Part shown: positions 1 through 20,020 of the stretch, piece after piece | How positions within the stretch are numbered: the first letter of the stretch is position 1 | How the letters are laid out: every line of letters starts with the position of its first letter | IMG/VR virus record: IMGVR_UViG_3300034105_000092 | Location: 1-26,980 of that record | DNA: 26,980 nt | Direction: 5' to 3' (one strand) | Source of the DNA: a virus | Made by a program: the position numbers and the translations under genes | Notes under the pieces: model-generated | What the model saw: only the letters and a program-made list of their open reading frames with translations | Told to the model about the DNA's origin: nothing | Database searches by the model: none

Positions 1-133
1 GAAGAAGTTCTGCCATGCTGTTGTCGATTTGAGCCTCCCTTTTGCCTAGGCGTATAATAACAGTAACTACCCCAATGGTGAGAATAGCTAATTGCAATAC
101 CGAAACATAGATACCAATGTTATTCTCTGTCAT
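1..133 (-). CDS. Small single-pass membrane protein, 3' end outside window
   Basis: An ORF too short for routine calling starts at 133 and runs off the left edge (44 residues visible). Residues about 5-27 form one hydrophobic segment (IGIYVSVLQLAILTIGVV and following), then a basic turn (RLGKRE) and a polar stretch. This is the pattern of a one-helix inner-membrane protein with a cytoplasmic or periplasmic tail. An AGGA ribosome-binding site lies about 8 bases upstream, and the gene starts 17 bases after the fibre stop. In T7 the gene after the fibre is the holin, followed by small terminase and spanin, so a lysis role (holin or inner-membrane spanin) is a reasonable guess from position and topology. 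No family motif proves it. Confidence 0.65.
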   Translation of the reverse strand, partial: MTENNIGIYVSVLQLAILTIGVVTVIIRLGKREAQIDNSMAELL

Positions 134-150
134 AAATATTCCTAAAATAA

Positions 151-3100
151 TTAAACAAGATACCAATGTATTGAAACACCTTTTAACCAATTATTAACAG
201 CAACTCCTGCTGGAGCACCGGCTGCACCATATAGATTAAAAGTAACTACCGATCCACTATTAAATGCGGTATAACTTTGTATAGCAATACTATATAAACT
301 ATCTCCAATACTATTGCTATAGCTTGTTCTATATAGTATTCCTTTCCATTTTTTACCATCTTGAGAAGTACCCGGAGCATAGGTTGTCTGCACCGCAGCC
401 TGACTACCTACCCAAGCATGATTAACGATTATTGGAAAACGACGATCATCAACATATCCCTTAGTAGTAACAACAGTAGCAGCATCATCTCTTATAGTAG
501 CTTCTGAGCTAATCTTAGCACTAGCAGTAATGGCACCAGTTACACCAAGACCACTGGTTAGCGAAATAACACCCGCTGAGTTAATTGTAAGTCTATCTGT
601 ATTAGCAGTTTTTACAATAAAGCTACCTGTAGCTGATGCACCAGTACCAAGAACTTGGTTAGTACTACCAGTAGTAAGATTACCAGCAATAGCCATGTAA
701 GTTCCAAGGCTTGCTGTAGTCGCATAAGGAGACAAGGCTGTGGTTAAAGCAGCTTGAGTAATAATCTCATTATTAGCGGTAGGAGCTGCAACTGTTGCTG
801 CACCTACAAGCCATGCTTTACCAGAAGCAGGAACTCTTAGTACTAGATCGCCAGCAGTAGCTGGAGATACAGTAGATACCTGTCGGTTAATACTTGTGGT
901 GCTATTAACAGCTCCAAGTAAAATCTTACCAGCATTATTTAGGAGAGTTAGCGTAGATGGTGAATCAATTGTGACATTACCAACTAGAGTACTAGTCCCA
1001 TCTACATTTAGATTTCCATCAACATCCAATGCTTTTGTAATATTTACTAAACCAGTACCATTAGGTGCTAGGTTAATATTACCATTAGTATCAGTACTAA
1101 TGATTGTGTTGTTGCTAGAGCCAAGGGTTAGATTCTTAGCAGTAATAGAAGCAAAAGTTGGTGTAGAACTTGTGTTGATAGACTGTGGTAGCCCCAGTGT
1201 AACAGAACCAGTTGAAGCTGTAACTGTTACTTGATCTGTTGTTCCAAGAAGTCCAGTTACACCAGCATTATTAATTGTTAGTATATCTGTTGTAGCATTA
1301 GCTGATAATGAAATACCTGTACCAGCGTTTACTGTAAAGCTAGCATTGCTAGAATCAGCAACCAAATTAGTTGCTGTTGGTGTTGTACCTACAATTACAG
1401 TACCAAAGTTATTTGGTTGTGTTGCTGTATTGGTAATAGTAATTGTCTTAGTGGTATTATTACCAGCAAGAGAAACTCCAGTACCCGCATTAAGAGTTAA
1501 GATTTGCGTATTACTAGCAGCAGCAATATTTACATCACCAGTAGTGGTTCCAGTTAAATCAACTCTACCATAGATAAGCTGTGAAGAACCACGGTCACTG
1601 TTTGTCAGACCAAATGTAGTACCTTCACCAACCGTACCAGTAAGTGTAAGACCAGTGGTAGCAGTAATAGCAGCAACATAGTTACCTGTAGTATGAGTAC
1701 CAAGGGTAATTGAATCGTTTACTGGAGATGTATTAAGTATAACATTACTAGTACCATCAAAGGAAACAGTCGGAGCAGTTACAGCTCCAGTAATACTAAA
1801 GGTACGACTATTTTGCAAAGCAGTAGCGGTAGATACATTGTCTCCAATGAAAGCAAGTGTCTTAGTTGCTCCTGAACTACGGAACTTTAGAATTCCATTG
1901 TTATTCCAAAGATCACCATTAACAAGAGTTCCGGGATCTAAGTTAGCAGAAGGAAGAAGAATGTTTGCGCTTGTACTAGTAGGAGCAGCAAGAGATAACT
2001 TTCCTGTCATCTGTTGTGCGCCAGTAAGTAGCATACTAGTAGCCGATAGATCTCTAACTGCCTTTGAAGATGCAGCTTTTGTACCGTCATCTAAAGTTGT
2101 AGAATTACTTAGATCTACTGCAGCAGTGCTTCCGCTAATACTAAGACCAGTACCAATTTTAATACCACCAATTTGTGTGCTACTTGCTGGCTTTAGAGAA
2201 ATAGCTCCTAGACTAGTGACAGCAATACCACCTTCAGTTCCATCAAAAATACTAACTAATCCTGCAGATGATGTTGTACCTGCTGCACCAGACACAAGAC
2301 GAGATAAACCAAAGTTTCTAATAATAACATTAGTTCCAGCAGTTATTGCAGTACTGGTATATAAATAAACTGTTTTTGTATTACCAGTAATATTTAAATG
2401 GAACCAGCCGGGAAATGCAGTAACCGATGTTGGAGCAGCAGTCTGTGGAACACATTTAATAGTACTACCTTCAATTTCAACCAGAACCATTGTACTAGTG
2501 GTTGCATATAATGGATTTTGTCCATCTATAAAATCAAAAGCGTATCTATTATAACCCGTAGGAGTATTTGCGGTTGGTGTAGGTACAACAGATCTATAGA
2601 CCTGTGGTAAAGTACTAGCAATTAGAATACCCGATGCAGCAGCATTTGCTAGAACAACACTTTCAAGTAAAGCAAAGTTAACAGCATCTGATCCAATAGC
2701 CATTCCGGGAGTTGGCGTACCAATTCCTGTTAATCTACTACCATTAGCAGTAATTACACCGTTGGATGCTACAAGAGCATTAGCAGTAAAGTAATCCAAA
2801 GGCACTGCATCAGTTGAATCTACTGGTGTAGCAACACCACGAATTCTTGTTCTATTACCACTACGCAGCGCAGTGAAGTTGGGTGAATCCCAGAAAACTG
2901 CATTACTAGTAACAACACTGGTTGGAATTCTTCCAGCATCAAATGTTCCTGTAGTAATCTTAGTAGTATCTAAGTTAGGGATATCAGTATTCAAGAGTGC
3001 TCTTGGTGTGATACTAGTAACTCGTCCTTTAGTATCAGTTACGATAGTTAAAGCTGGTTGAGTATTTCCAAATGTACCTTCTGTTCCTATGTTTGCTAAG

Positions 3101-4929
3101 CAACCATTAGGAAGACTGAATGTATTAAAAACTGTAGAATCAATAGAGTTAAGAGGAATGTTTGTTGGAATAAAGCCAAGAGGAAGTGTGCCTTGTCCTG
3201 TTGATGTATCTAGTTTAGCGATTGTAATAGAAGCATTACCAATAGCACTAGGGGGCAGCGTATAATTATCATTGGTTACACTTAATTTACTAAGAGGAAT
3301 ATTAGAAGGAAGATCTGCAGTACCCATACTACGATGAGAAGCTAAAAGTAATCGTCCTGTAGCATCATACTGCAGTTGAATCATATTGTCGACATTGCCA
3401 GCAGTAGCTTTACCATATGTATTAGCGTTAGTAACATTAGTAGTTGGTAAATCATTTACTTCAATACTACGATGAGCAGCTGAAGTAATAATACCCTTAT
3501 TATCTACTGTAAATCTAGTTAATGTATTTGTACCAGTACCACCTTGAGCACCATAATCATTAGCTGTTACTCCACTAGTTGGAAGATCGCTATTACCAAA
3601 ATTTCTATTACTTATTCCAGTTATTCTACCTTTATTATCGACACCAATTTGTAACATGTTATTGGCATTAGTAGCAGAGTTTTGTCCATAAGTTGTTGGA
3701 GTAATAGTAGAAACTGTTGGAAGATCTTCTACTGCCATATTACGGGAAGCAATAGTAGTAACTCTTCCTTTATTATCGACAGTCATAGATACCATGTTAC
3801 TGGCATTATTTGCTGATGCAGAACCAGCAGATTTAGAAGCATCAGAAGTGACACCACTGTTTGCTAAGTATTCTGTTGGTAAAGTAAATGTTTGATTAGC
3901 AATAGTACTTAGTTTTGATAGTGGAATATTACTAAGAACATTATTAGTTAGTGTACCAGTAGTAATATTAGTTGCATTTCTTACCTGATCTAGTGTAGCT
4001 GCATCTGTAGCATCTACAGCATCAGCCATTCCAGTAATACGCTTTGGTGCTTCTCCGTCTGGTGTTGCGGTAAACTCCCCAGAGAAAGGAACTGCTGTAC
4101 CACCATTCATTGTTGTTCTGTGTACTGTACCTTGTGTAATGGCATCGTAAACAACTGCAACATTGGTTGCAAAGGTTGCACCAGATATAACACCAGTACC
4201 AACACCTGTGCTAAACGCTACATTAACTTCACCAATAGACTTACTGTTTAAATCTTTGATGTAGTTATTGGACATCTTAAGATCGCTACCACCCAAGAAT
4301 GGACCATCAATTGCGTTCTCGTCGAACTTTAAGATAATCTCATTTCTAACTTTGGCGATAAGCTCTTGAATAATATACTTTAACTGATTAAACTGAAGGT
4401 TTAACTGTGTTGTAGTTAGTCTTGTGCCGGGAGCAAAGGTAACAATACTTTCAATAGATAGAGTCTTTCTTCTAATGATTACAATATCAGGTTGTCTTAC
4501 AACATTATTAACACTTGTACCAACATTGTTAACTAAGAAGTTAGGAATATCTATAGTTTGTTCATTTCCCTCTGAATCTAGAGTCTCTAATACAAATGTT
4601 CTAGAGTTTGGATAATATAAACTATTAGAAGTTGAAATAGTGCTAAGATCAACAACAGTTAGGATTTTTGTCTGTTCATTGATTGAATACCATGCTTTAG
4701 GTAGAATGAATATCTGCCGTCTATCAGCAATGGTAAATACATTCTCACCGAATTTTGTATCATATCCTGTATCAAAGATACGCTCGATTTCGATTTGATC
4801 TATTAGAGGAACATGAGGAAGAAAGCTAAGTGTGCTTAAGTCGAATGTCCTTGTAGAAATAGAAGGATCAAGTGCTCCTGAAAATGTCAGAGAAACTTGA
4901 GCAATTTCTAAGTTATTATATGTTGTCAT
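151..4929 (-). CDS. Large tail fibre protein with T7 gp17-like N-terminus
   Basis: This 1592-residue protein is far longer than T7 gp17 (553 aa). Its first ~200 residues look like the T7 fibre attachment domain: the part near residues 160-190 (TFAPGTRLTTTQLNLQFNQL, then a helical QEL stretch) matches the 'FtpGs..ra.dLN' end of that domain, so it should dock on the tail tube. Residues ~375-640 carry five copies of a ~46-residue repeat centred on VDNKGR-V/I-T. Further on are Thr/Asn/Ser-rich beta repeats with NAGTGVSL and LAPNGTG motifs, common in aquatic phage fibres. The final ~70 residues are a distinct C-terminal domain, presumably the receptor-binding tip. It starts 11 bases after tail tubular B with GGAG upstream. 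Role as fibre is well supported; the receptor is unknown. Confidence 0.9.
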   Translation of the reverse strand: MTTYNNLEIAQVSLTFSGALDPSISTRTFDLSTLSFLPHVPLIDQIEIERIFDTGYDTKFGENVFTIADRRQIFILPKAWYSINEQTKILTVVDLSTISTSNSLYYPNSRTFVLETLDSEGNEQTIDIPNFLVNNVGTSVNNVVRQPDIVIIRRKTLSIESIVTFAPGTRLTTTQLNLQFNQLKYIIQELIAKVRNEIILKFDENAIDGPFLGGSDLKMSNNYIKDLNSKSIGEVNVAFSTGVGTGVISGATFATNVAVVYDAITQGTVHRTTMNGGTAVPFSGEFTATPDGEAPKRITGMADAVDATDAATLDQVRNATNITTGTLTNNVLSNIPLSKLSTIANQTFTLPTEYLANSGVTSDASKSAGSASANNASNMVSMTVDNKGRVTTIASRNMAVEDLPTVSTITPTTYGQNSATNANNMLQIGVDNKGRITGISNRNFGNSDLPTSGVTANDYGAQGGTGTNTLTRFTVDNKGIITSAAHRSIEVNDLPTTNVTNANTYGKATAGNVDNMIQLQYDATGRLLLASHRSMGTADLPSNIPLSKLSVTNDNYTLPPSAIGNASITIAKLDTSTGQGTLPLGFIPTNIPLNSIDSTVFNTFSLPNGCLANIGTEGTFGNTQPALTIVTDTKGRVTSITPRALLNTDIPNLDTTKITTGTFDAGRIPTSVVTSNAVFWDSPNFTALRSGNRTRIRGVATPVDSTDAVPLDYFTANALVASNGVITANGSRLTGIGTPTPGMAIGSDAVNFALLESVVLANAAASGILIASTLPQVYRSVVPTPTANTPTGYNRYAFDFIDGQNPLYATTSTMVLVEIEGSTIKCVPQTAAPTSVTAFPGWFHLNITGNTKTVYLYTSTAITAGTNVIIRNFGLSRLVSGAAGTTSSAGLVSIFDGTEGGIAVTSLGAISLKPASSTQIGGIKIGTGLSISGSTAAVDLSNSTTLDDGTKAASSKAVRDLSATSMLLTGAQQMTGKLSLAAPTSTSANILLPSANLDPGTLVNGDLWNNNGILKFRSSGATKTLAFIGDNVSTATALQNSRTFSITGAVTAPTVSFDGTSNVILNTSPVNDSITLGTHTTGNYVAAITATTGLTLTGTVGEGTTFGLTNSDRGSSQLIYGRVDLTGTTTGDVNIAAASNTQILTLNAGTGVSLAGNNTTKTITITNTATQPNNFGTVIVGTTPTATNLVADSSNASFTVNAGTGISLSANATTDILTINNAGVTGLLGTTDQVTVTASTGSVTLGLPQSINTSSTPTFASITAKNLTLGSSNNTIISTDTNGNINLAPNGTGLVNITKALDVDGNLNVDGTSTLVGNVTIDSPSTLTLLNNAGKILLGAVNSTTSINRQVSTVSPATAGDLVLRVPASGKAWLVGAATVAAPTANNEIITQAALTTALSPYATTASLGTYMAIAGNLTTGSTNQVLGTGASATGSFIVKTANTDRLTINSAGVISLTSGLGVTGAITASAKISSEATIRDDAATVVTTKGYVDDRRFPIIVNHAWVGSQAAVQTTYAPGTSQDGKKWKGILYRTSYSNSIGDSLYSIAIQSYTAFNSGSVVTFNLYGAAGAPAGVAVNNWLKGVSIHWYLV
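3310..3855 (-). repeat. Tandem ~46-residue repeats inside the tail fibre gene
   Basis: Four consecutive copies each contain an N-N-M/T-hydrophobic segment, then V-D-N-K-G-R/I (degenerate YDATGR in the fourth), then a T/S-x-A-x-R-x-M/I segment and an acidic-D-L-P end. A fifth, more diverged copy (TDTKGRVTSI) lies near 3020-3042. In DNA the core is visible as related 'cctttattatcgac' blocks near 3770 and 3630. These are likely stacked beta elements of the fibre shaft. Confidence 0.8.
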
Positions 4930-4940
4930 TATTTCTCCGG

Positions 4941-7900
4941 TTAAGTATCAATGGTTGTGTATTTTTGTTTAAACTTACCCTTGAACTCTATGTTTGTAAT
5001 GTTTACTGGAGTTGGGTATTCACTGGTAATTCTAATAGTAGTTGAATCTGAGTATCCAAGAATCTTAGATACAAACTCACCTTGCTTTTGGAATATCTCT
5101 AGAGGTAAAGTATCTTCATAGATTGTATACTCCGGTCTTGTTGGAATATAACTTGTTGTGAAGGCAGGTCTACCTCTATGGGTTACTTCGATATCATAAG
5201 GTCCAGTGAAGTAGTGTCTAAAAATAGCACTACGGATATTCAATACACCATCTATAATATTATTATTCTCATCGCGTACAAAGAGAGTACTAAGTTCTAC
5301 ATTCATCTTAAACTTAAGACCAATGTATACATAGTAATTCCTAATTGCATAGTTTGCACCAATGACTACAATCTCTGTATACTGTCCTCCATTAGCATCT
5401 GTTTTATTAGTTACGCTAAAGGGTTGTATTGCTACATTACTGAGATCTTCATTTTGATCACTACCATCATTAAAGTATCCCTTAAAAAGGACAACAAAGT
5501 ACTTATCAATCTCAGTTATGTTGGTATGTCCGGGTATACGATAAGTAGTCATTGCGGTGTATGGATCATAGTTAGCATTGAAGTTAACAGGTTGATCCTC
5601 TGAGTTAATAATCTTCATCTTAAACATACGATCAAGACGAGGAACATATACATCTTCGTTTAACATATAGTTGCGGTAAAGATAATAGGCATAGGTATTA
5701 CTATCAACACTAGTTTCTCGTTTACTGACAACATACATGTTATTAGAATAGCACTGCAGTGTCTCAATAGACTCAGTATCATCTAGGATATAACGATAAA
5801 ATGAATTCTGTACAACCCGATCTCCACTAAACCGATTGACATACCCATAGATATGATTCCGCTGGTCATCATCCACAAAGAGTAGTGTGTCCTGTGCGGG
5901 GGCTGTGGCTGCAGTCCTGTAGTTCTTTGGTAGATAGCCAGCTGCTGTGCTTGAAACCTCTACAGCAGAGGCGTAGCCCATTGTACCCTTACCCGTAAAA
6001 AGGAAGAGTTTCTGGGAATCAAAGAAGTAGAGTCGTGATCCAATAAACTGTGGGTCTAGGATAGGCGCAGTACCGTAGTAGGTAACCGGGGCTACTGCTA
6101 CATTGCTTGGCGACAGTTCCATACCTGCAGAAGACATCAATTGGAATTGGATGTTAGCCTTGGTATTGATAAACATATACTCTTCAAAGGGAGTCATACT
6201 TGTGATCTCACAGTAGCTATTTGAGGAAACACGAATGTCAATCGGATCTGTGGTGATAATATTCTCTGCATCCTTAAGGAAGAGTGATTCATATTCACCC
6301 ATCTCAGATGAGAAGATAACATCATCAGCGGAGAACCACAGTCTATCTTTAAAGACTGCGATGGAGTTAATCTTTACATGCTTAAGCTTTTTGCGGTCTA
6401 CGGTCTTAAAGATACTCGGTCCCGGATTGGTTGTCTTGTCACCTGTGGTTCTAGCAGACCACTTGATTGGTTCAATATTCCATGCGGTTACATTGGATGC
6501 ATCAATGGATACCACAAGCTTCTGTGGCATTCTTTTGGGATCAATGTAAGAGTGTTCATCAGGTGTTCTAATCTTCTGGAGATAAGGTCTACCTGTTGTA
6601 GTGATTGCTGTTGTATGTGTTATGGTATTAGGACCCACTACAGTGACACCCGAATAAGTATAGATACCTTTAGTAGTATCATTTGAATCATAATAATAAG
6701 TCTGCTCAGCTGGGTTCCAACTAATGACTCTATAGTATCCACTTGTTGTGTTTAGATATGGGTTAAGTGTAAAGAAGATCTTACCACGACCATCTATAAT
6801 TCCATTGAGAAGTGTATCGCTATCATAGAGAGAGCGAAGCATTAGCTTAGCAGTATCATCTGTAGGACTACTTAGTTTGGAGTTATTAGAGAACCAATCA
6901 TCCTTTTCAGGGGGTAATCTAATCGTAGATAAATCATCTACACGACTTCCTAAGTAAGCTTGAGCTGAATTATAATAATAGTAATCATCAGCAGAGATAT
7001 AATCTGCATTGGTTATATTAATAGTATAGAGAGTACTGCCGATTGTAACGGCACTTGTTAATCCCGAAGAAATAGTTGCTACTCTTGTCTGACCCACATA
7101 GCCTGTAATGGTATAGGGACCACTGTTAGAAAAGGTAATTGACTGTCCTTTATAAGCATCATTAATAATAGAAGCTGAAGATGCTAAGGTTACTGTAGTT
7201 GCTGTAATAATAGAATTAGCAGCTACAGTACCAGTAACTTCTAATGAAGCAATACTAATGGAGTATCTTGTAGTCACATTATTGGCGTGTTGGGGTAAGA
7301 CTGGAAGAACTGTTGCTTGTCTGGTTGCACCAACATAGTCAGTTATTTTATGTCCAGTACTTACTTGCCCATCAGCAAAGGTTACTGACATAGTCATCCA
7401 ATTATAAGTATCATCTAGATTAGAAGCTGCATCAGATAAATGAATATGTGTATTTGGAGTACCACCACCCTCTATTTGTGAGATACCAGTTTCTAGTGCA
7501 GGTTTCCATCCAAGTAAGACATCATCTCCTGTGCTTGGTAGGTTATCCGCACCCGTGTCAAATACCTTGGCAACTTTAGCTGCCGTATAGTATTTAATCT
7601 TACGACCATTGACATCTGGGGTTGTAGTGACATCTCCGTTTAAATCAAATAACATACCATCAGTAGTTGCATTTCCAGTAACATCAGAACTGAATCCCGC
7701 TCGTACATTCTTATTAAGAACAACCACGCTTGATCCCAATGATACAGCCTTAAGAGATTCCTTGGCTGTCTTGCTGTTGTTTGGGTTGTGTGTAATATAA
7801 GCACGGCTAGTTGCACTGACTACAGCCTCAGTATTCTGATTAGCTGGAGTTAGATCTTCCCACTTACCTGTAGGGTAGACTCTAAAAATATAAAATAAAT

Positions 7901-8264
7901 TATGAGCAGTTGTGGTTGCACTAAAGTCAACTACAACAAGGAATGTATTCTCTTCATTAATACTGTACCAGTAATACCATAGATCATGGGTTGATGGCAC
8001 AGCCGCTAGGGCATACAAATCTAATCGAATAGCATTGGATGAGGTATCCCATGAGGTAGCTTCGGCTGCAGACTTCTGCGGTACAATCTCAAAGCCGGGT
8101 CGCTTCTCAAAGTTACGCTCTAGGGAAACTAAAGCATTGTCAATATTCTCTGCCTCGTTTGGTTGCCGTCTATTAGGCGACTGTCTACCAACAGAGTTGG
8201 TTGTAAAGACAGGAAGTTTGGTTGAGGCATAGCCAGCCTGTGGGCTGCGTCTGCGAATAGCCAT
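4941..8264 (-). CDS. Tail tubular protein B (T7 gp12-like nozzle)
   Basis: The 1107-residue product follows the smaller tail tubular protein and precedes the fibre, the gp12 position. Its N-terminus (RRSPQAGYASTKLPVF, then a GRQSPNRRQPNE segment and NALVSLERNFEKRPGFE) matches the conserved start of gp12-type nozzle proteins, which open with a loop describing the gate region and an RPGFE-like motif. The centre carries EEYMFINTKANIQFQL and a VDDDQRNHIYGYVNRFSG stretch typical of these beta-propeller tail proteins. It is about 300 residues longer than T7 gp12 (794 aa); residues ~275-415 hold two related beta domains that account for part of the excess. The start overlaps the previous stop by one base (TAATG), with GGAGG just upstream, indicating translational coupling. 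It would form the distal tail tube and hold the fibres. Confidence 0.9.
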   Translation of the reverse strand: MAIRRRSPQAGYASTKLPVFTTNSVGRQSPNRRQPNEAENIDNALVSLERNFEKRPGFEIVPQKSAAEATSWDTSSNAIRLDLYALAAVPSTHDLWYYWYSINEENTFLVVVDFSATTTAHNLFYIFRVYPTGKWEDLTPANQNTEAVVSATSRAYITHNPNNSKTAKESLKAVSLGSSVVVLNKNVRAGFSSDVTGNATTDGMLFDLNGDVTTTPDVNGRKIKYYTAAKVAKVFDTGADNLPSTGDDVLLGWKPALETGISQIEGGGTPNTHIHLSDAASNLDDTYNWMTMSVTFADGQVSTGHKITDYVGATRQATVLPVLPQHANNVTTRYSISIASLEVTGTVAANSIITATTVTLASSASIINDAYKGQSITFSNSGPYTITGYVGQTRVATISSGLTSAVTIGSTLYTINITNADYISADDYYYYNSAQAYLGSRVDDLSTIRLPPEKDDWFSNNSKLSSPTDDTAKLMLRSLYDSDTLLNGIIDGRGKIFFTLNPYLNTTSGYYRVISWNPAEQTYYYDSNDTTKGIYTYSGVTVVGPNTITHTTAITTTGRPYLQKIRTPDEHSYIDPKRMPQKLVVSIDASNVTAWNIEPIKWSARTTGDKTTNPGPSIFKTVDRKKLKHVKINSIAVFKDRLWFSADDVIFSSEMGEYESLFLKDAENIITTDPIDIRVSSNSYCEITSMTPFEEYMFINTKANIQFQLMSSAGMELSPSNVAVAPVTYYGTAPILDPQFIGSRLYFFDSQKLFLFTGKGTMGYASAVEVSSTAAGYLPKNYRTAATAPAQDTLLFVDDDQRNHIYGYVNRFSGDRVVQNSFYRYILDDTESIETLQCYSNNMYVVSKRETSVDSNTYAYYLYRNYMLNEDVYVPRLDRMFKMKIINSEDQPVNFNANYDPYTAMTTYRIPGHTNITEIDKYFVVLFKGYFNDGSDQNEDLSNVAIQPFSVTNKTDANGGQYTEIVVIGANYAIRNYYVYIGLKFKMNVELSTLFVRDENNNIIDGVLNIRSAIFRHYFTGPYDIEVTHRGRPAFTTSYIPTRPEYTIYEDTLPLEIFQKQGEFVSKILGYSDSTTIRITSEYPTPVNITNIEFKGKFKQKYTTIDT

Positions 8265-8941
8265 TAAAAACCTCCGGTACGAAAGTACCTAAACCGATTT
8301 GGATCACTTAAATTACGAGAACGCATTGCTGAACTTCTAGCTAGATTGTTATTACCGAAGATGTTCTTCTTCTTGTCATTCATATCTGCTGCTTTGCTCT
8401 TGAGAGTAAAGAGTTGCTCTTGGTATCCCAAGAAGGCATCAGTTGCTTCATCACCCTGAGTAATACTCTGGTAGTGACGCATAGCAGTAGCCATGATGGC
8501 TCTCTGTACTGAAGTCTCTAGGTTCTCCCAAGGTAACTTCATTGTAAATTCAATATAATATGGACCATCAGCAGACTTCCATACATCAGTATCATCAGTT
8601 ATGTTCCACATACGAGCAGGAGATGCATTGTTTAATACTCTTGCTTTGATTAATCCAAGTTCTGGACTAATGTGTTGTGAGATTAACTCAGCCGCTAGGA
8701 TACCTGACTCATCAGAATCTGGGGTAGGTAGAGCAATATAACCATCCGCTGTTAAAGTAAACTTACGAATATATTTGTTGTTGGCAAGACCTCTTAACTG
8801 ATGGTCAATGCTTGCTTGTTCAAGTAGAGTATCAGCAATACCAGTATCAATACCCGACTCACCTTCAAGGTCAGCTACAAGGTTCTCACCTGAAGCCAGT
8901 AGCATTTGATTAATTGCCTGTAGCTTAGTTATTAAGCCCAT
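8264..8941 (-). CDS. Tail tubular protein A (T7 gp11-like)
   Basis: This 225-residue protein (T7 gp11: 196 aa) sits between capsid and tail tubular B. Its start, LITKLQAINQMLLASGENLV, and the later motif W-E-N-L near residue 140 with an A-x-R-H-Y-Q segment (helix of an adaptor protein) are typical of the gp11/gp4-like gatekeeper family that joins portal to nozzle. It has a strong AAAGGAGG ribosome-binding site and lies directly after the capsid terminator, so its transcription depends on read-through or on a separate promoter. Its stop overlaps the start of tail tubular B by one base. Confidence 0.9.
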   Translation of the reverse strand: MGLITKLQAINQMLLASGENLVADLEGESGIDTGIADTLLEQASIDHQLRGLANNKYIRKFTLTADGYIALPTPDSDESGILAAELISQHISPELGLIKARVLNNASPARMWNITDDTDVWKSADGPYYIEFTMKLPWENLETSVQRAIMATAMRHYQSITQGDEATDAFLGYQEQLFTLKSKAADMNDKKKNIFGNNNLARSSAMRSRNLSDPNRFRYFRTGGF

Positions 8942-8963
8942 AGTAGCCTCCTTTAGTTGTTAG

Positions 8964-9000
8964 AAAAAACCCACCGACTCCCACTTAAGGGAGCCGGGGG
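8964..9000 (-). terminator. Intrinsic terminator downstream of capsid gene
   Basis: On the minus strand a run of C and G (CCCCCGGCTCCC) pairs with GGGAGTCGGTGGG around a six-base TTAAGT loop. The stem has about 12 pairs including one G-U and one bulged T, and is followed at once by six T residues. This is the textbook Rho-independent structure. It lies between capsid and tail tubular A, the same place as the T7 terminator T-phi, which lowers tail gene expression relative to capsid. Confidence 0.88.
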
Positions 9001-9066
9001 TAGATAAACGATCACCTCCGATTCAAACTAGTACTAGAAACTTGTTATGAAGGAGAAGAGTAATCA

Positions 9067-10344
9067 TTAGCTTGTGAAGTATTCGCCACCGAAGCCACCA
9101 GTGTAGTTAGTAGCAACAGTCCCTTTTAGGAAAGTTGCAATAGTATCACGAGTATCTGCAGTATTAGCGGCTGTGCAACCAGTAATAAGCTTGACCATCT
9201 CAGGCTTAATGATACCAGTACCCTTAAGCATGCTGCCTACGGTGAACTGAGTATTACGGCGAACATCCTGTACGGTGTCAACCTTCATGCCCATGAGGGA
9301 AAGACCAGCAACTGCTTCTGACTGGAAGATAATACCATAAGTTGCAAATCCAGAGCACTTCAAGTTATACTTGGAACCACCAATGTTATTAGCAGTGGCA
9401 CTGTGGTCGATTTTTGGAATATGGTTACTCTTAACAATCTTAACACCCATGTAATCAAGGCTGTCAGTCATTGCGTTCATGCCCTGTGAAATTGGAGCAC
9501 CAGCACCATATTCATCACTTCCAGTAAACAATGGGTTATTTGCGTAGTTACTAACAGTGTTGAGAACACCAGTAACTGCTGGTGCTCCAGTAGCATTATA
9601 ACCAGTGTAAGCAGATCTTGGGATACCAAGCGCACGAATAACTTGGAATACCTTTGGAGGTACAGCGCAATAAACACTGCCAACTGGAACATCATTCTCT
9701 TGGCAGGTAACGAGATAATCTTCAATTGCTTGAAGAACCTGAAGTCCTTCATTATCTGAAGTTGCGCCAATTAAATTAGCAACAGTTCCACTTGAAATCT
9801 GCTTTGGAGCATGGAATGCAGCCGCTGCAAGACCACGAGGATCTCCAGTTACTGGAGGTAAAGAACCTGCGGCTACGAGTGCCATCAGAATCTGACGGTC
9901 ACGAGTGTTAGCAAGGGTAAGTCCAGCCTGACGAGCCAACTCAGAGCGGTAATCCCACTGAGTAACAAGCAAGTCAACATTGTCGGTTTCAAAGTGAGCT
10001 GCCATTGGACGCTTATCAAGATTGACCTTGATAGTGGTCGAGGTAGAATTCGTGTCACCACTGTAACCACCGAGTTCAACACCCGAATTCCAAGATGGGT
10101 TAAGACCGACAGTGCCAGTGATTGGGAATTCGTAAGAGTATCCACCAGTAAGAGTCTTAGTGGTAATCATGTTTTCAAACATATTAAATTGATCATATGC
10201 ATTGATGACTTCACCCGACCAAAGTGGTAACCAAAGCTTATTAAGTGGAGTTGATCCACCTGAAGTTTCAGCTGCTGCTGCAGTACGAGGAAGTGTAAAG
10301 TCTCCAAAGGGGACATTTGTGCTAGCGAAAGTAGTTGCTGCCAT
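9067..10344 (-). CDS. Major capsid protein (T7 gp10-like)
   Basis: The 425-residue protein follows the scaffold gene. Recognisable HK97-fold features of the T7 group are LPLWSGEVINAYDQF near residue 40, a GGYSYEFPITG segment, VNLDKRPMAAHFETDNVD, and WDYRSELARQAGLTLANTRD near residue 130. These parallel the gp10 pattern 'fsGevl.af..', 'G.s..Fp..G', 'id..l.a...i.diDe' and 'yDvRs...q.G.aLA...D'. It is longer than T7 gp10A (345 aa). The start has only a weak AAGAAAG ribosome-binding site, but a structured 185-base leader precedes it and a terminator follows, so it is probably expressed as its own high-level unit. The stop TAA is followed directly by TGA. I see no slippery site suggesting a frameshifted minor capsid form. 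Confidence 0.92.
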   Translation of the reverse strand: MAATTFASTNVPFGDFTLPRTAAAAETSGGSTPLNKLWLPLWSGEVINAYDQFNMFENMITTKTLTGGYSYEFPITGTVGLNPSWNSGVELGGYSGDTNSTSTTIKVNLDKRPMAAHFETDNVDLLVTQWDYRSELARQAGLTLANTRDRQILMALVAAGSLPPVTGDPRGLAAAAFHAPKQISSGTVANLIGATSDNEGLQVLQAIEDYLVTCQENDVPVGSVYCAVPPKVFQVIRALGIPRSAYTGYNATGAPAVTGVLNTVSNYANNPLFTGSDEYGAGAPISQGMNAMTDSLDYMGVKIVKSNHIPKIDHSATANNIGGSKYNLKCSGFATYGIIFQSEAVAGLSLMGMKVDTVQDVRRNTQFTVGSMLKGTGIIKPEMVKLITGCTAANTADTRDTIATFLKGTVATNYTGGFGGEYFTS

Positions 10345-10395
10345 TGTAGTATTCTTTCTTAAAAAAGATCATATCATTCATATCAAATTATAAGA

Positions 10396-10440
10396 CAAAA
10401 AGTTCTCAACCGTTCGATTATTCCTAAGGGAGTCTTTTTG
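10396..10440 (-). promoter_or_regulatory. Hairpin in capsid gene leader (proximal)
   Basis: On the minus strand CAAAAAG-A-CTC pairs with GAG-AA-CTTTTTG around a ~22-base loop, giving 7+3 base pairs separated by a small internal loop. The 3' arm is U-rich, and TCTTATAATTTG follows, containing a perfect TATAAT. No matching -35 box stands 16-18 bases upstream, so a host promoter is not proved. The structure may be a weak terminator, an RNase III site or a mRNA-stabilising 5' hairpin. Confidence 0.5.
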
Positions 10441-10450
10441 TTGAGTGAGT

Positions 10451-10500
10451 TTAGCCAAGGGTCATCCATTACCATAAAGGGGGATTTACCCTTTGGCTAA
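10451..10500 (-). promoter_or_regulatory. Long hairpin in capsid gene leader (distal)
   Basis: The arms TTAGCCAAAGGGT and ACCCTTGGCTAA (minus strand) pair over 12 bases with one bulged A. An inner ATCC/GGAT pair set continues the stem. There is no U run after it, so it does not look like an intrinsic terminator. It is followed by AACTCACTCAA, which shares ACTCACT with the core of T7-type phage promoters but lacks the GGG start. It could be an RNase III processing site or a stability element between scaffold and capsid messages. Confidence 0.5.
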
Positions 10501-10529
10501 CCTCAGTCGATCCGCTGTCTTGTTACGGA

Positions 10530-11459
10530 TTATTTGGGTAATTTTTCAAAGTTAGTACGCATCATCCGCTGCTCAACATATGCACGATACTTAGGATCGG
10601 CATTGAAGCCCGGATGATTACGCTCTGCAGAGAACTCTCGCTTAGTTTGATAAGCGACAATACCCTGCTGAGTCGATGCAATAGGAACCTGTCCTCTTGC
10701 ACTTGGCTTGGGTTCTGCACCCTTGCTTGTCTGTGTGGTCTTAGCATACTTAGCCTGAAGCCCATAGAGGGCTACATCCCAAGATGCTGATGCTAGGTTC
10801 TGATTGACTGAAGCCTGTTCTGCAGGACTGAGGTTCTTGCTAGCCCAGACAAAGAGTTTACTCAACTCTTCCCGACCACCAACTAACTCAGATGCCTTAG
10901 TATAAGCCATCTCAATCTTAGCCTTCTGTCCCTGCATATATTCATTAACAACATAATCAGGAAGACCAGTCTTCTTCTTAATGACTTCCAATGTCTCAGC
11001 CGAAAGATCATTGTTAGCCGTGAACTCAATGGTCCACTGCTTCCAATCATCTGAGGATGCCGGGTTGTTTTCTACCTTGGCTACCTCTTCAACCTTGTTC
11101 TCTGGAATCTTTAAGACCTCTGGTAACAAAGGAATTACTTCCTTCACAGGTTCTACCACAGGCTTTCCCGTAACTGGATTAGTAGTTGACGGGGTTGTTT
11201 CATACTTCTTCTTCAGGTCTGCGACTTCTTGTCGTGACTGAGTGTATCCTTTTTGAGCAGTCTTTAAACTCTCAAACCAAGCTCCGGCATCCTTGAAGTT
11301 TTCAGGGACAGCCATACCTTGGTTTCTTACATAAGCATCAAAGGCTACTTTCTCACGAGCAAGCTGAGCATCCTCTGGAGTCGATGTAAGAGATTGTTCC
11401 GAAGACATGACTGGAGTCTCGGAGGATTGTTCCATCATATCGGGAGTCTCTTCATTCAT
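10530..11459 (-). CDS. Capsid assembly scaffold protein (T7 gp9-like)
   Basis: The 309-residue length is almost that of T7 gp9 (307 aa) and the gene sits directly before the capsid gene. The protein is acidic at the N-terminus (MNEETPDMMEQSSE), rich in Glu, Lys and Gln, and predicted mostly helical, with a Pro-rich linker around residues 90-140 and a conserved-looking helical part around 150-240 (DDWKQWTIEF, LPDYVVNEYMQGQK, LSPAEQASVNQNL). A basic C-terminal end (AYVEQRMMRTNFEKLPK) fits the scaffold helix that binds the capsid shell. No catalytic motifs are visible. Assignment is by position, length and composition together. A weak GAAAG site precedes the start. Confidence 0.85.
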   Translation of the reverse strand: MNEETPDMMEQSSETPVMSSEQSLTSTPEDAQLAREKVAFDAYVRNQGMAVPENFKDAGAWFESLKTAQKGYTQSRQEVADLKKKYETTPSTTNPVTGKPVVEPVKEVIPLLPEVLKIPENKVEEVAKVENNPASSDDWKQWTIEFTANNDLSAETLEVIKKKTGLPDYVVNEYMQGQKAKIEMAYTKASELVGGREELSKLFVWASKNLSPAEQASVNQNLASASWDVALYGLQAKYAKTTQTSKGAEPKPSARGQVPIASTQQGIVAYQTKREFSAERNHPGFNADPKYRAYVEQRMMRTNFEKLPK

Positions 11460-11480
11460 ATTGTGTATCTTTCGTTAAAT

Positions 11481-11576
11481 TTAATAAGGCTTCTTCTTGG
11501 AAGCGGCTTTCTTAACTGCCATCTTCTTGTCCATCTTCTTATCCATCATCATCTTCTTAGCTGGTTTCTTCTTCAT
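11481..11576 (-). CDS. Lys-rich 31-residue microprotein
   Basis: A short ORF encodes a 31-residue peptide with 14 lysines and repeated D/M-K-K-M units (MKKKPAKKMMMDKKMDKKM at its start, ending in KKKPY). It has a strong AAAGGA ribosome-binding site five bases before the ATG and begins 12 bases after the previous stop, with the scaffold start 21 bases beyond it. The whole gap is therefore used. The extreme positive charge suggests nucleic-acid binding, perhaps DNA packaged in the capsid or binding to the acidic scaffold. This is inference; no family is recognised. Confidence 0.65.
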   Translation of the reverse strand: MKKKPAKKMMMDKKMDKKMAVKKAASKKKPY

Positions 11577-11941: not shown

Positions 11942-14900
11942 TTACAGGGTGGTTAAGGTGTTGATCTGTGATTGTGACAAAGCGGATGGATAAAACTTAA
12001 TCTGTCTAATTGTTCCAAACATAACTGCATTTGGAGCCGAATCTCCTGTACACCCAATACCCAAATGTGTTGCCACGGTTGGCAATGCAGTAGGTGCAGT
12101 TGCTACGCCAGTACTAGTAACTCCGTCATATGAACCAGAGAATGAAGATGAATCAATTGAAAGTGCAAATTTATGCCGAGTGCCATATGCAAGTCCAGTG
12201 GCAAAACTGCGCTCAGTATTTGTCGATGCTGCAATCTTTCGAGATGCCGTCATTGTCGGAGGGTTGTAGTAATAGATCTGGTTTCCATAAGAGAAAGTGC
12301 CACCTACTGTTCGATCAAAGACACGAAGAATGTCAAGGTACGCACCGCTTGGTGTATTTGGGATGCAGTCAACAAACAAGGTCTGCGGATAAGGATTGCC
12401 AGAGATGAATGATGAAGTAGGGATTGTGCAGTGATCCGCAACTCGTAGCACTGTGCTTGTTGAACCTGTAGGGATGTATGAACTTGCGCCAAAACCTAGT
12501 TCCGTTTGTGCGCCGTAGACAAGAATGTCTGCGGTTTCGCTGTTGACAGGTGGTCCAGTAATGTTATCCCAAAGCATGATTTGGAACTCAGCACTACCGT
12601 CTGTAACTGCAAACGTATGAGTAAACCGTTGCCACGTTGTGGTAACTACGCAGTTAACTCCGGCACTTGATCCCATCCTTAGACCAACATTTTGGATACC
12701 TGCTGCACCGTTTGCTATATTTGCTTTCATCCAAACGGACATGGTATATGTGTTACTTGGTACAGATAATATGGTACGGCGAATACGGGAAAATATGCCG
12801 TTAACACCGGATGCGCCATTTATTTTGTCAAAAACAATGCGTGTTACAGTTAATGCACCGTCAGGACCAGTAGAAGGATATAGCGGAGTAACTACAGGAT
12901 CAAGCGCACCATTTGCTACACCATCCCTAGTCCAGTTAGCGTTGTTAAAGTCGTTACTATATGTACATAAATTAGTAGTTGCTCCCTCAATCAACAACCC
13001 TTTCGGTTCTGTTGTATTGACTGTAACTGAGGCTGTTGTTGTTGGGATATAGTCGGTAGCTCCACCACTTGTTACATATTCAACTTGCATACCATAAATA
13101 GATATATCAAGTGGATCTATAAATCCTTTTAAAGTAATTTCAGTGATAGCATTAGCTCCGGCTGACAGATCTATTCTTGTCCATGTTGTAGGTATTGTTA
13201 CAGTAGACAACAAACTAGAAGACTGTTGTAAAAAACAAGTTTGTTCAGTAACTGCATTTGATTTTGCATAAAATGAAATTCTTGCTGTCTTACCAGAAAT
13301 CGCCGGAACACTAAGTGCTTGTGTTATACCAGCATCAGAATTAAGTGCTGTGATTTTTGTGGCTGTACCACTGAATCCGGGTGGTGCTGTATCAGTTGTA
13401 AGAGTTACAGAGTGTGTAGCATCTTTTTGCGCCCAAGGTGTACCTGCTGCTATAGTAAAGTTATTGGATTGTAATATTAAATTAGTACGGCTTGTCAGAA
13501 TGTTATTATCAAAACGAGGACTGTAATATGCAACGGCACCAAGTGCTGGCTGATATGTACGAACTGTAGAACCAGCTTCCAACTGCGCTCCATAGACATG
13601 GAAAGTTGCAGTCTGTGGAGAACCTGCTGTAAGAACCCGAATCTCAATGCCATCATTAGCCCCGGATGCTGTAAACGACATACTTACGCGCTGCCATGTT
13701 GTAGTTAACGTAGGAAAGAATGCACCTGTTGGTGTTGATGCTCTAGCAAATCGCACATTTGTAAGCGTTCCACTATCAGCCCTCATCCACATAGATATCG
13801 TGTAAGAAAGCCCAATACTAGTAGGAACACTTCGTGAGATAACAGCATCACCAGCCGTTGCGGTGTACACCAGTTTTACAGCAGATGTTCCACCATTTGG
13901 ATCTGTTTGCCCTGCTGTTCGTACAACGCCAGTGCCATATCTGTTCCAGAATGTTTCTGAATCTTGTCCTTGGCTATATGTCATTTCATTAGATGCAGCC
14001 AACTCTATATATCCGCTTGAGTTTATAAAGGTTGCATTACTAAGCCGGGTAAAAGTTATTCCTTTATTTATTAGGTCTGCACCAGTAGTCATAGGTACAA
14101 AATCTAAATCTAAAGTAGGTGCAACATATGTAGGATTGGTAATTTGTTGTAATTGTGAATTAGAAAGGCGGGTTGGGAAGTACTTAATTGACTTGACCAA
14201 ACCATTTATTACTAGACCACTAGTGCCACTATCCGCGTAAAGTTTGAGCGTATTCAATCCAACCGGAACTGCTCCTGTAACATCTGTTTTCATGTCTCCA
14301 CCGTTGCTACATATAGCAAAGTCGTTCAGCGAATAGGCACTACCAATACGCACATTACCAGAGGTGATTGTTGGATATAGTTCAGCACTGTTAACCCCAC
14401 CGCTATAGTAATCAACATATCCCTTTCTGATACCAATGCGGTTAGTTGCAGAAATACCTGTACCGACACTCAATTCAATACCTGAATTATCAGTAGCCAA
14501 TCCGTTGTAGGTTATATTGCTTATGACCGTACCTGCGGACTCGTTGAACCAACTACTGATACCGCTCATGTAGCAAGTGTCTAAAGTTCGCATGACCCCA
14601 CTCGCACCCGTAGGGATGTAGGAGGATGCGCCGGAGCCGAGTTCTAGTTGTGCGCCGTAAACAAGAATGTCAGGCGTTAATGATGTACTGTTGTTTCCAA
14701 GCATAAAGAATCCAACCAAAGCGGAACCAGATGTTCTCGTCGTTTGGAATCTTTGCCATGTTGGCGTGACGGTGAAATCTACCCATGTATCGTTTTGATA
14801 CAACGATAATGTATGGTTGCCTGATGTGTTCGACTTCATCCACAAAGACATTGTGTACGGGCTTGTCTGACTTGTGATGTAGTAAAGTCGCGGAGAACCG

Positions 14901-15787
14901 CCACCGTCTGCAACCGCAAATTGAAGACGAGTGCAGGTCGAGCCATTTGCTGGGTTTGTTGCTGTATATGGGTTGGTAACTGTTACAGTTCCTCCAGCAT
15001 TATTTCCACCTGTAAACCAACTTCCACCCTGAAGCGTGTTTGAGAACGGCAAGTAGTTCACCGATTGCCCCTCAATAAGCAGTCCCCTTGGCTCCCCAAT
15101 GTTCGTAGGGCTGTAGTCGAACCGAGGGGTGCTGTAATTCTGTGTTCCACTTGTTTGGATTAAGTCACCAGCAATTGAACCCGGTTGAACTTGCGCTCCC
15201 CAAACATACATAGTCGTACTTGCACTTACAGTCTGTGAATAAACAGCACCACCATCGTTTGTTCCGTTGGTTACATACTGACAACTAAATCGCTGCCATG
15301 TAGTTGTCAACGCTACGGTCAAAACCGCGCCAGTATTTGAACTCCCAATTCTTGCATTTGTTGTTTCACTTGCTGCACGAAGCCACACAGAAAATGTGTG
15401 AGTAATTCCAGATACAACAGTAGTTCCGGCAGTATTGAAGATTGCAGACGCTGCGTTATTAAAAAGAAGCGACTGTGCGTTTGTTCCACCAATGGGATCA
15501 GCAATTCCACCTCCAATCCAACTAACAGATCCGGTTGCATTCCAGCCCGGTACGCCTGGTCCGGGGTTGCTGTAAGTAAAGCAATTGGCATTGGCAAATT
15601 GAACATACCCACTTGAGTTCACAAAGGTCGCAGTACTAAGCCGACTAAATGTTATCCGTGGATCAAGCACACCCGTAGTAAAATCTAAGTTTAATGTAGA
15701 ACCATCCCCTCCCTCTATAGGAAGCAAACGATTCCGTTGTGTCCTCCATTCAGGAGGATCTAAAGTCCATGTTCGATTACGATGCAT
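11942..15787 (-). CDS. Multi-domain spike/fibre with repeated jelly-roll carbohydrate-binding-like domains
   Basis: This 1281-residue protein has a modular beta architecture. Two copies of a start module (LDF...ITFSRLSTATFVNSSGY near residue 33, ITFTRLSNATFINSSGY near 580) match phage head-spike-type domains, as do the PRF(D) and (R/K)GLLIEG...TN/VN segments. Five modules near residues 165, 346, 699, 870 and 1054 share TWQRF or TWTRI, followed by V/I-Y/W-G-A/M-Q-x-E/Q and, in three, a YIPT end: the layout of CBM-like jelly rolls. The C-terminal ~150 residues resemble a LamG/concanavalin fold ending in IRQIKFYPSALSQSQINTL. The start overlaps the preceding stop (TAATG), with GGAG upstream. Probably a surface spike that binds glycans; where it sits on the virion is not known. 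Confidence 0.85.
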   Translation of the reverse strand: MHRNRTWTLDPPEWRTQRNRLLPIEGGDGSTLNLDFTTGVLDPRITFSRLSTATFVNSSGYVQFANANCFTYSNPGPGVPGWNATGSVSWIGGGIADPIGGTNAQSLLFNNAASAIFNTAGTTVVSGITHTFSVWLRAASETTNARIGSSNTGAVLTVALTTTWQRFSCQYVTNGTNDGGAVYSQTVSASTTMYVWGAQVQPGSIAGDLIQTSGTQNYSTPRFDYSPTNIGEPRGLLIEGQSVNYLPFSNTLQGGSWFTGGNNAGGTVTVTNPYTATNPANGSTCTRLQFAVADGGGSPRLYYITSQTSPYTMSLWMKSNTSGNHTLSLYQNDTWVDFTVTPTWQRFQTTRTSGSALVGFFMLGNNSTSLTPDILVYGAQLELGSGASSYIPTGASGVMRTLDTCYMSGISSWFNESAGTVISNITYNGLATDNSGIELSVGTGISATNRIGIRKGYVDYYSGGVNSAELYPTITSGNVRIGSAYSLNDFAICSNGGDMKTDVTGAVPVGLNTLKLYADSGTSGLVINGLVKSIKYFPTRLSNSQLQQITNPTYVAPTLDLDFVPMTTGADLINKGITFTRLSNATFINSSGYIELAASNEMTYSQGQDSETFWNRYGTGVVRTAGQTDPNGGTSAVKLVYTATAGDAVISRSVPTSIGLSYTISMWMRADSGTLTNVRFARASTPTGAFFPTLTTTWQRVSMSFTASGANDGIEIRVLTAGSPQTATFHVYGAQLEAGSTVRTYQPALGAVAYYSPRFDNNILTSRTNLILQSNNFTIAAGTPWAQKDATHSVTLTTDTAPPGFSGTATKITALNSDAGITQALSVPAISGKTARISFYAKSNAVTEQTCFLQQSSSLLSTVTIPTTWTRIDLSAGANAITEITLKGFIDPLDISIYGMQVEYVTSGGATDYIPTTTASVTVNTTEPKGLLIEGATTNLCTYSNDFNNANWTRDGVANGALDPVVTPLYPSTGPDGALTVTRIVFDKINGASGVNGIFSRIRRTILSVPSNTYTMSVWMKANIANGAAGIQNVGLRMGSSAGVNCVVTTTWQRFTHTFAVTDGSAEFQIMLWDNITGPPVNSETADILVYGAQTELGFGASSYIPTGSTSTVLRVADHCTIPTSSFISGNPYPQTLFVDCIPNTPSGAYLDILRVFDRTVGGTFSYGNQIYYYNPPTMTASRKIAASTNTERSFATGLAYGTRHKFALSIDSSSFSGSYDGVTSTGVATAPTALPTVATHLGIGCTGDSAPNAVMFGTIRQIKFYPSALSQSQINTLTTL
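12507..12529 (-). repeat. Near-identical 23-base repeat inside the spike gene, copy 1
   Basis: The plus-strand bases tgtgcgccgtagacaagaat and the next three differ at one position in 23 from those at 14649-14671. Both encode the I-L-V-Y-G-A-Q part of a jelly-roll module. The flanking 'gtagggatgta' (YIPTG) is also shared. This suggests a fairly recent intragenic duplication. Confidence 0.75.
14649..14671 (-). repeat. Near-identical 23-base repeat inside the spike gene, copy 2
   Basis: Partner of the repeat at 12507-12529 (22 of 23 bases identical), encoding the same I-L-V-Y-G-A-Q motif of another jelly-roll module 2.1 kb away in the same reading frame. Confidence 0.75.
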
Positions 15788-16332
15788 TACATTGCTCCAT
15801 AGAAAGCATTACAACCATTAGTAACAACTGATCCTGTGAATTCAATTTCAATTAATTCACAACCAAGGGTATCAACTAACAGGAAGGCAGTATCATTTAC
15901 TCCAGTAGCTGAGTAAAGTTTTGCATCTCCTGCGGCTTTTGCAATAGTAGTAACAACTCTAAAACCTGTATCAGCATTTACTGTGATGTTATTGCCACCT
16001 ACAGCCATACTACTAGATGCAAAAAGACACATAGGAACATAAGCAATTACAGTTCCAGCAGGATTAATTACTTTATTCCATCCTGTAATTTTAATATTAG
16101 GAGTAGTAACAGTTGATTTAACAACAGGAATAATCTTTAAATAGTTTAAAGTAGAACTAGGAATTATAATAGCAGAAGCAGATGATGCTGGTGCTGCAGT
16201 TTGTGGGATGTTATTTGTAAATGAACTTACTGTATTTAGATTATCAGTTACTACTGCAGTTACCGATGATTTGAGTAGCTTCATTGGCTCTTGCACAGTC
16301 TTTAACTGTGACATTGTATGTGTATGAATCAT
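15787..16332 (-). CDS. Hypothetical 181-residue virion-like protein
   Basis: The protein begins MIHTHTMSQL, which echoes the THTHTLSNL motif near residue 55 of the 446-residue protein two genes upstream. Residues ~25-60 are Ser/Thr/Ala-rich and probably a linker. The remainder reads as a beta-sandwich (NYLKIIPVV, IKITGWNKV, NGCNAFYGAM at the end). There is no signal peptide or clear membrane helix. The start overlaps the stop of the 32-residue gene by one base (TAATG), and its own stop overlaps the spike start in the same way, so the three are probably translated together. Decoration or fibre-connector protein is my best guess; I do not recognise the family. Confidence 0.8.
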   Translation of the reverse strand: MIHTHTMSQLKTVQEPMKLLKSSVTAVVTDNLNTVSSFTNNIPQTAAPASSASAIIIPSSTLNYLKIIPVVKSTVTTPNIKITGWNKVINPAGTVIAYVPMCLFASSSMAVGGNNITVNADTGFRVVTTIAKAAGDAKLYSATGVNDTAFLLVDTLGCELIEIEFTGSVVTNGCNAFYGAM

Positions 16333-16430
16333 TATTTTTTATCTTTCTTTGGGTACACTATCTTTGTAGCGTCTTTGCCTGTGCATGTGGTAGTCTTACC
16401 ACAGTTACATTTGTATGTTTTTTTTGCCAT
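16332..16430 (-). CDS. Cysteine-containing 32-residue microprotein
   Basis: A short ORF encodes MAKKTYKCNCGKTTTCTGKD followed by a basic tail ending KKDKK. Three cysteines are placed C-x-C-x5-C, too few for a full zinc ribbon in one chain, though a dimer or a partner could complete one. It starts three bases after the stop of the 446-residue gene and its stop overlaps the next start (TAATG). That placement, with no spare bases, is the main support for it being a gene. No strong ribosome-binding site is visible, so translation probably depends on the gene upstream. It shares the MAKK start and basic, Cys-rich character with the 98-residue protein nearby. Confidence 0.6.
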   Translation of the reverse strand: MAKKTYKCNCGKTTTCTGKDATKIVYPKKDKK

Positions 16431-16433
16431 GTT

Positions 16434-20019: not shown

Positions 20020-20020
20020 G

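Follow-up and report, generated by a model that had tools for sequence, protein, structure and literature searches.

Likely relocation of the ejection-protein genes to a position after the terminase gene in an uncultured lineage of T7-like phages

In bacteriophage T7 the late genes are arranged in the order 12-(13-14-15-16)-17-18-19, with the genes for the internal core proteins placed between those encoding tail tubular protein B (gp12) and the tail fibre (gp17). Passages of PMC8954989 describe the ejection genes of such phages as an operon that opens with a gp14-like gene of ~180-240 aa, adjoining the larger gp15-like gene, with the likewise larger gp16-like gene next; in the same passages, the lengths of gp15 and gp16 are said to differ widely, and transglycosylase activity is described as phage-specific. 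Conservation of the T7 late gene order is wide, and a gene not found in its usual slot could be misread as lost. Among ten reference records, core genes directly follow gp12 in nine, the exception being podophage Lau218 (NC_024329). In seven of these nine the fibre is annotated behind the core genes, the next genes being collagen-like in CRP-125 and unnamed in YIMV22061. Polyvalent proteins, on which Iyer and co-workers have reportedly worked, provide a second point of comparison. The relevant passages of PMC5512222, which also discuss the N4 virion polymerase, present them as proteins that combine domains such as metallopeptidases and ART-PolyVal, are encoded near late genes and are likely injected.

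The window analysed here, 26,980 bases in length, is the entire sequence of a fragmentary virus record (IMGVR_UViG_3300034105_000092), and all its family-matched genes lie on the minus strand. Reading along that strand, these are a partial DNA polymerase, a nucleoside deoxyribosyltransferase/MazG-like gene, a dNMP-kinase-like gene, an exonuclease, a dUTPase and a ribonucleotide reductase, followed by the portal, tail/spike-like, scaffold-like and capsid genes, tail tubes A and B and the fibre. The gp8-like portal (18063-19676) matches phrog_449 (E 1.1e-101) and is 30-33% identical to the portals of named phages among the matches listed (30 phage records). The gp10-like major capsid protein (9067-10344) matches phrog_267 (E 9.2e-22) and, weakly, the Gp10A-like family PF21703, whilst the gp11-like tail tubular protein A (8264-8941), our query in the search for tail-tube relatives, matches PF17212 and phrog_446. 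Matches of the 1107-aa gp12-like nozzle or tail tubular protein B (4941-8264) to PF25675 (Phage_nozzle; E 1.4e-53) and phrog_457 (E 8.5e-58) are confined to its C-terminal half (residues ~560-1105 of 1107). The 1592-aa fibre (151-4929) has an N-terminal domain match to PF03906 (Phage_T7_tail; E 1.7e-5) that scores 25.0 bits, just below the curated cut-off of 25.2, and it has no PHROG match; its identity as gp17 is thus weaker than the gp12 call, yet appears reasonable. In the interval between portal and scaffold (11942-17774), the window encodes a 1281-aa protein with a carbohydrate-binding domain (PF02018) and a 446-aa protein with tail-repeat similarity, and these tail/spike-like genes may represent receptor-binding genes in an unusual place.

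On the minus strand the gp12-like ORF (8264-4941) ends and the fibre ORF (4929-151) starts 11 bases further on. This junction (4930-4940), as seen in the ORF map, the sequence itself and its relatives, reads TAA-CCGGAGAAATA-ATG; it includes a GGAG ribosome-binding motif and leaves no space for another gene. Both the 11-base spacing and the presence of gp13-gp16 at the equivalent place in T7 had been pointed out in the original prediction, and both are borne out. Of 80 tail-tube relatives, 52 cover the junction and a further 400 bases or more, the other 28 having been left out of the count because there was too little sequence beyond the junction or the gp12 end was not found. In all 52 a fibre-like ORF begins 9-15 bases past the gp12 stop (11 bases in 38 cases), and nothing occupies the place where genes 13-16 would normally lie. 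A separate contig (L126) is 100% identical to the window across the junction. The short junction is thus not an assembly accident.

The record comes to an end 150 bases past the fibre stop codon. Genes downstream of the fibre could not, therefore, appear in the window, and core genes described as missing from it can be said only not to be in their usual place. The last gene present is the start of an 84-aa gene (1-133; ATG at 133-131) that is cut by the record end and is 100% identical to its counterpart in L126 (L126:2699-2953). By eye, the N terminus of its product is hydrophobic, and there is a weak match to DUF2231 (E 0.14); the protein could be a candidate holin.

Overlapping contigs reveal what lies beyond. 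L126 is 100% identical to window positions 1-11498 and extends 2,820 bases further, encoding, past the fibre, proteins of 84 and 156 aa and a terminase (561 aa) before ending within the first bases of a 165-aa gene. L149 (which, reversed, is L173, the same contig) is 100% identical to window positions 1-1072 and 99.86% identical to L126 1-2900, and carries the terminase, the 165-aa gene, a gp14-like gene (248 aa) and a 349-aa gene. G019 (43,538 bases), 100% identical to L126 1-2900 and encoding the same 349-aa protein as L149, has the whole cassette, with the 561-aa terminase followed by proteins of 165, 248, 349, 1,430 and 3,232 aa; further on are a T7-type helicase-primase and other replication genes. 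The G019 fibre (1954 aa; L289 7227-13091) differs from that of the window, which points to a fibre swap between close relatives. G019 also encodes a 189-aa protein (L288:5474-6043:-) matching the citrate synthase C-terminal domain (PF00285; E 3.8e-12), and 189-aa ORFs are found at a like place in G001, G002, G003 and G006.

The same arrangement is seen throughout the relatives. Of 18 relative records, 16 were fetched (G017 and G018 were left out) and two of these, G007 and G016, end before the cassette; in all 14 that run far enough, genes for the gp14-like, ~350-aa and ~1.4-kaa (thousand-residue) proteins lie past the terminase in this order. Searching IMG/VR with the ~240-aa gp14-like protein identified 90 relatives, the best 80 of which gave 78 usable loci once L224 and L234, without a qualifying ORF, were set aside; some records belong both to this set and to the 14 above. 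In 78 of 78 loci the gp14-like gene is closely preceded by a terminase ORF, at spacings from a 10-base overlap up to 516 bases, and the ~350-aa gene comes next in 63, the other 15 loci ending within 900 bases. The full order is fibre, 84 aa, 156 aa, gp18-like small terminase, gp19-like terminase, (165 aa), gp14-like, ~350 aa, 1,076-1,755 aa and 3,232-4,337 aa. In T7 numbering this is 12-17-18-19-(14 and company), as against 12-(13-14-15-16)-17-18-19 in T7 itself.

Two of the smaller genes merit comment. In G001, a 74-aa gene before the terminase resembles T7 gp18 (PF11123; E 3.4e-4), scoring 21.1 bits, less than the cut-off of 27.5. The 165-aa gene, found in L173 between the end of the terminase (3812) and the start of the gp14-like gene (4297) and also at L119:13719-14216, measures 152 aa in G014 and G015 and is missing in some relatives, such as G008. 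Its product has no Pfam match better than E 0.19 and contains a GPRTGTS motif, which we take to resemble a P-loop or sulfotransferase start.

The gp14-like proteins are 212-278 aa long, some members exceeding 240 aa, and their genes are followed by those for proteins of ~350, 1,076-1,755 and >3,200 aa. No PHROG or Pfam family was matched at E 0.01 or better (the best PHROG, annotated as minor tail protein, was at E 0.066), an HMM built from ten gp14s gave no hit in 10 records and a tblastn search of 50,697 phage records gave no match. Profile comparison by hhalign against the same number of gp14s gave 43-57% (E 1-2e-4) over ~40 residues of the hydrophobic, Ala/Gly-rich N terminus. Controls scored at most 7.7% (60 full and 60 block shuffles) or 1.8% (two reversals), known gp14s ranged from 0.8 to 99.4% in a leave-one-out test, and when gp13, gp14, gp15 and gp16 were compared, gp14 alone was picked out. 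Simple hydropathy analysis finds one N-terminal hydrophobic stretch in six of six members tested, and likewise in T7 gp14.

Further clues come from structure prediction. An AlphaFold2 model of the gp14-like protein has a pLDDT of 58 overall and ~82 at residues 81-160. Foldseek comparison of the model with the PDB placed T7 gp14 at ranks 3 and 9 of 353, with E-values near 1 and with probabilities (0.96 and 0.94) that are the highest among the best 50 of the 353. With VIA-align, T7 gp14 ranked first (7ey7_A; Z 10.9, 2.0 Å, 101 of 102 residues, solved gp14 residues ~38-139), and entries containing T7 gp14 took ranks 4-5 (8e4g_a and 9jz0_0). Long-helix folds match easily, and a designed helical bundle reached Z 10.8 in the same search; the score by itself is thus insufficient, and it is the specific recurrence of gp14 that carries the assignment. 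By predicted fold and by position, with weak support from sequence, the ~240-aa protein is T7 gp14-like.

For the proteins that follow, sequence comparison is less informative. When the ~350-aa, ~1.4-kaa and largest proteins were aligned by hhalign to gp13, gp14, gp15 and gp16, nothing exceeded 4.2%. That value (E 0.01) belongs to the largest protein against the gp16 profile, known gp16s spanning 0.2-100% in leave-one-out comparison; the ~1.4-kaa protein scored 0.1% against gp15, a test in which five of ten known gp15s fall below 10%. In the leave-one-out controls T7 gp15 reached 15%, T7 gp16 2.6%, the S-SBP1 proteins 0.1% and 9.6% and the two from Lau218 (gp15/gp16) less than 0.4%, with other members at 85-100%. 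The missing profile link to gp15 and gp16 therefore says little, as many accepted members fail the same test. No match to the ~1.4-kaa protein was found by tblastn in 50,697 phage records. Its predicted model (pLDDT 72) has no confident match in the PDB, where helical-bundle noise is seen and there is no gp15 among the matches listed. In BFVD the top-ranked match is the internal virion protein of Pantoea phage LIMElight (E 4.5e-3, probability 0.25), with that of Acinetobacter phage Aristophanes third (probability 0.20). Named internal virion proteins occupy ranks 1, 3, 29, 34 and 48 of the best 50 amid unrelated viral proteins, none at E 0.001 or better, and the matches are a hint only. Gene order and relative size, in place of the sequence link that was not found, suggest that the ~1.4-kaa protein acts as gp15, forming the periplasmic tunnel, and that the largest protein takes the place of gp16.

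This last protein is a giant, 3,242-4,337 aa long in 11 complete aligned copies and 3,232 aa in the copy nearest the window (G019), or ~2.5-3.3 times the size of T7 gp16 (1,318 aa). Three records are left out of the alignment: G014, where the gene is split by the record ends, G010, where it runs off, and G004, which ends before it. The original prediction suggested looking for a very long virion protein; a protein of 3,232-4,337 aa does indeed end the cassette, and its presence in the virion is predicted. Residues up to about 1,300 and beyond 1,900 are well conserved and those in between poorly so, and the variable section, 127-1,009 residues long, matches ART-PolyVal (ADP-ribosyltransferase) above the Pfam cut-off in five of 11 copies and has no match in six. 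A HExxH motif is present in all 11 and invariant in the alignment; weak peptidase matches occur in one member each to Peptidase_M78 (E 0.0095) and to the phrog_87 metallo-protease (E 0.017). In PHROG the giant matches families of unknown function (best E 7.8e-37) and, weakly, 'pilot protein for DNA ejection' (E 0.13), and the G019 copy has no Pfam family match. In a tblastn search of 50,697 phage records with the first 2,647 of 3,740 residues, 84 records were matched, and in the best 20 of these the match is confined to residues 1338-1765, around the ART domain. No SLT transglycosylase was found by Pfam in the 11 giants or in 10 records, but its absence is ordinary, since only one of seven reference gp16s has this domain.

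The gene order, the near-identical sequence shared with the window and the resemblance in fold between the first core gene product and T7 gp14 are matters of observation, and we consider it likely that the ejection-protein cassette of this lineage was relocated, moving from its place ahead of the fibre to one behind the terminase; the window ends just short of it. Of the three fates put forward in the original prediction for the core genes, elsewhere, replaced or absent, the first is correct for gp14, found by fold and position in near-identical relatives of the window, and probably correct for the rest, gp15 and gp16 being placed by gene position only. Counting against relocation are the short gp14 profile match and the missing HMM and family matches, the weak, helical gp14-like model, the lack of profile matches to gp15 and gp16 and of an SLT domain, the 'DNA pilot' match of a 116-aa ORF inside the window, and the fact that the window itself has none of the cassette. 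Fibre, terminase and cassette genes share one direction, as expected for one late transcription unit, so that a block moved as a unit would keep its genes co-expressed.

How do other explanations compare? Since the contig is metagenomic, the junction might in principle be an assembly chimera, but with the same kind of junction in all 52 spanning relatives and perfect identity to a separate contig, we regard this as next to inconceivable. A more serious objection is that the core genes are truly absent, the phage ejecting its DNA without them or with window genes as stand-ins. No match to the gp13-16 families is found anywhere in the window with Pfam or PHROG, and the nearest hint comes from a 116-aa ORF directly after the portal (17774-18124), 71 residues of which align with phrog_220 ('minor head protein and DNA pilot'; E 3.9e-13) and which also matches phrog_7595 (unknown function). 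The window is only a fragment, however, and the cassette is present in every fetched relative that runs far enough. A gene of the same size as the 116-aa ORF, moreover, lies behind the portal in several relatives that also carry the cassette; as it is kept there, we read it as a probable extra beside the cassette rather than a stand-in. Nor are the two stand-ins named in the original prediction supported: the ORFs at 19687-21154 match no internal-virion-protein family, and for the suggested NlpC/P60 protein, PF00877 is matched in none of 11 records, the window among them, while neither Pfam nor PHROG gives a match to the 167-aa ORF at 24979-25482. True absence is thus very improbable.

Harder to dismiss is a hybrid cassette with gp14 as its one true T7 core homologue, where gp15 and gp16 were lost in favour of unrelated polyvalent proteins, an ejection module from another phage lineage. 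The ~1.4-kaa protein and the giant lack a sequence link to gp15 and gp16, an additional ~350-aa gene lies in between, and the giant far exceeds T7 gp16 in size, has no SLT domain and carries HExxH and ART-PolyVal, all of which fit this scheme. Against it, accepted gp15s and gp16s, those of T7 and S-SBP1 among them, often fail the same profile test, SLT is rare in reference gp16s, among viral models the ~1.4-kaa protein is closest in fold to an internal virion protein, albeit at low probability, and the order and relative sizes match gp14-15-16. We therefore see the hybrid as a possible but rather doubtful alternative to relocation of the whole cassette. Under relocation, too, the last protein of the cassette has probably become, or been replaced by, a giant polyvalent-type protein.

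If the relocated cassette works as its T7 counterpart does, contact of the tail with the host would release the gp14-like protein and open a pore in the outer membrane, after which the next cassette proteins would build a channel through which the DNA passes. The giant may be injected with the DNA, entering the cell in the same stream. There its HExxH metallopeptidase-like part might release or process other domains or breach a host barrier; its variable section, which in roughly half of the copies is an ADP-ribosyltransferase, could modify host proteins. More tentatively, and with somewhat less than even confidence, we suggest that the gp16 position of a T7-type injection machine is occupied in these phages by an ejected protein of 3.2-4.3 thousand residues, with conserved N- and C-terminal scaffolds (~1,300 and ~1,800 residues), an invariant HExxH motif and an exchangeable cargo bay of 127-1,009 residues whose host-directed enzyme differs from one sister phage to another. 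In that case the ejectosome would serve a second purpose, the delivery of effectors, and the post-terminase relocation would mark a separate, old T7-like lineage. Should the giant be ejected, sister phages differing in the cargo bay would make the loading of early effectors onto a podovirus injection machine testable, along with the size limit for proteins passing through the portal.

The lineage comprises 90 contig stretches identified by the gp14-like gene, all of them uncultured. T7-type RNA polymerase (PF00940) is encoded in nine of nine long relatives, though not in the window, which is truncated; a block of core genes immediately behind gp12, a feature of the T7-like late order in Autographiviridae, is not seen. 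The record ends overlap in five of nine long relatives, suggesting near-complete genomes of ~62-65 kb compared with 39.9 kb for the T7 record. Judged by portal, tail, packaging and T7-type polymerase, these phages are T7-like, but far from named phages. In gp12 and terminase trees they form a clade on a long branch. Lau218 is also long-branched in the gp12 tree, where its placement is unsure, and absent from the terminase tree, and the trees leave the tie to this phage unsettled. A terminase search in bacterial and archaeal genomes yielded no clue to the host. In the open-access literature (titles and abstract openings) no description of a core cassette after the terminase was found, which is weak evidence of absence. 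As the cassette is kept at a new place, synteny-based annotation would miss it.

How, then, does this locus relate to known systems? As in the T7 gp14-gp15-gp16 ejectosome, a gp14-like protein with a match to the gp14 fold is followed by proteins of rising size, and there are counterparts of gp8, gp11, gp12, gp17, gp19 and, probably, gp18 together with a T7-type RNA polymerase. The differences from T7 are the position of the cassette, after the terminase and not between gp12 and the fibre; the additional ~350-aa gene; and a last protein of more than twice the T7 size that is without SLT and has HExxH and, in some copies, ART-PolyVal. For phage phiM1, the N-terminal helices of the ~1.4-kaa model align with an ejectosome protein (8vb2; Z 7.8, 115 residues, rank 35), a match that is not evidence by itself, as designed bundles and other unrelated helical proteins rank higher.

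With polyvalent proteins, including the N4 virion RNA polymerase as presented in passages of PMC5512222, the giant shares very large size, proximity to late genes and a metallopeptidase-like motif, joined in some copies by ART-PolyVal. ART is absent from six of the 11 giants and from the G019 copy, and the peptidase assignment rests on the motif and its weak matches. The giant departs from these proteins in ending a T7-like core cassette and in having no Pfam or PHROG polymerase-domain match in the copies scanned, and its injection is a prediction.

The nearest parallel in gene order is Lau218, where the fibre directly follows the gp12-like gene, with a 4-base overlap, and a gp14-like gene, scoring 93% as gp14 in the leave-one-out profile comparison, is found beyond the fibre. 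Unlike in the present lineage, the Lau218 core block precedes the small terminase gene, in a stretch examined that is without a large terminase, and its core proteins are of ordinary size (180, 767 and 1174 aa). A fibre-first order was thus known already from Lau218, whereas the position after the terminase and the giant protein are seen in none of the ten reference records.
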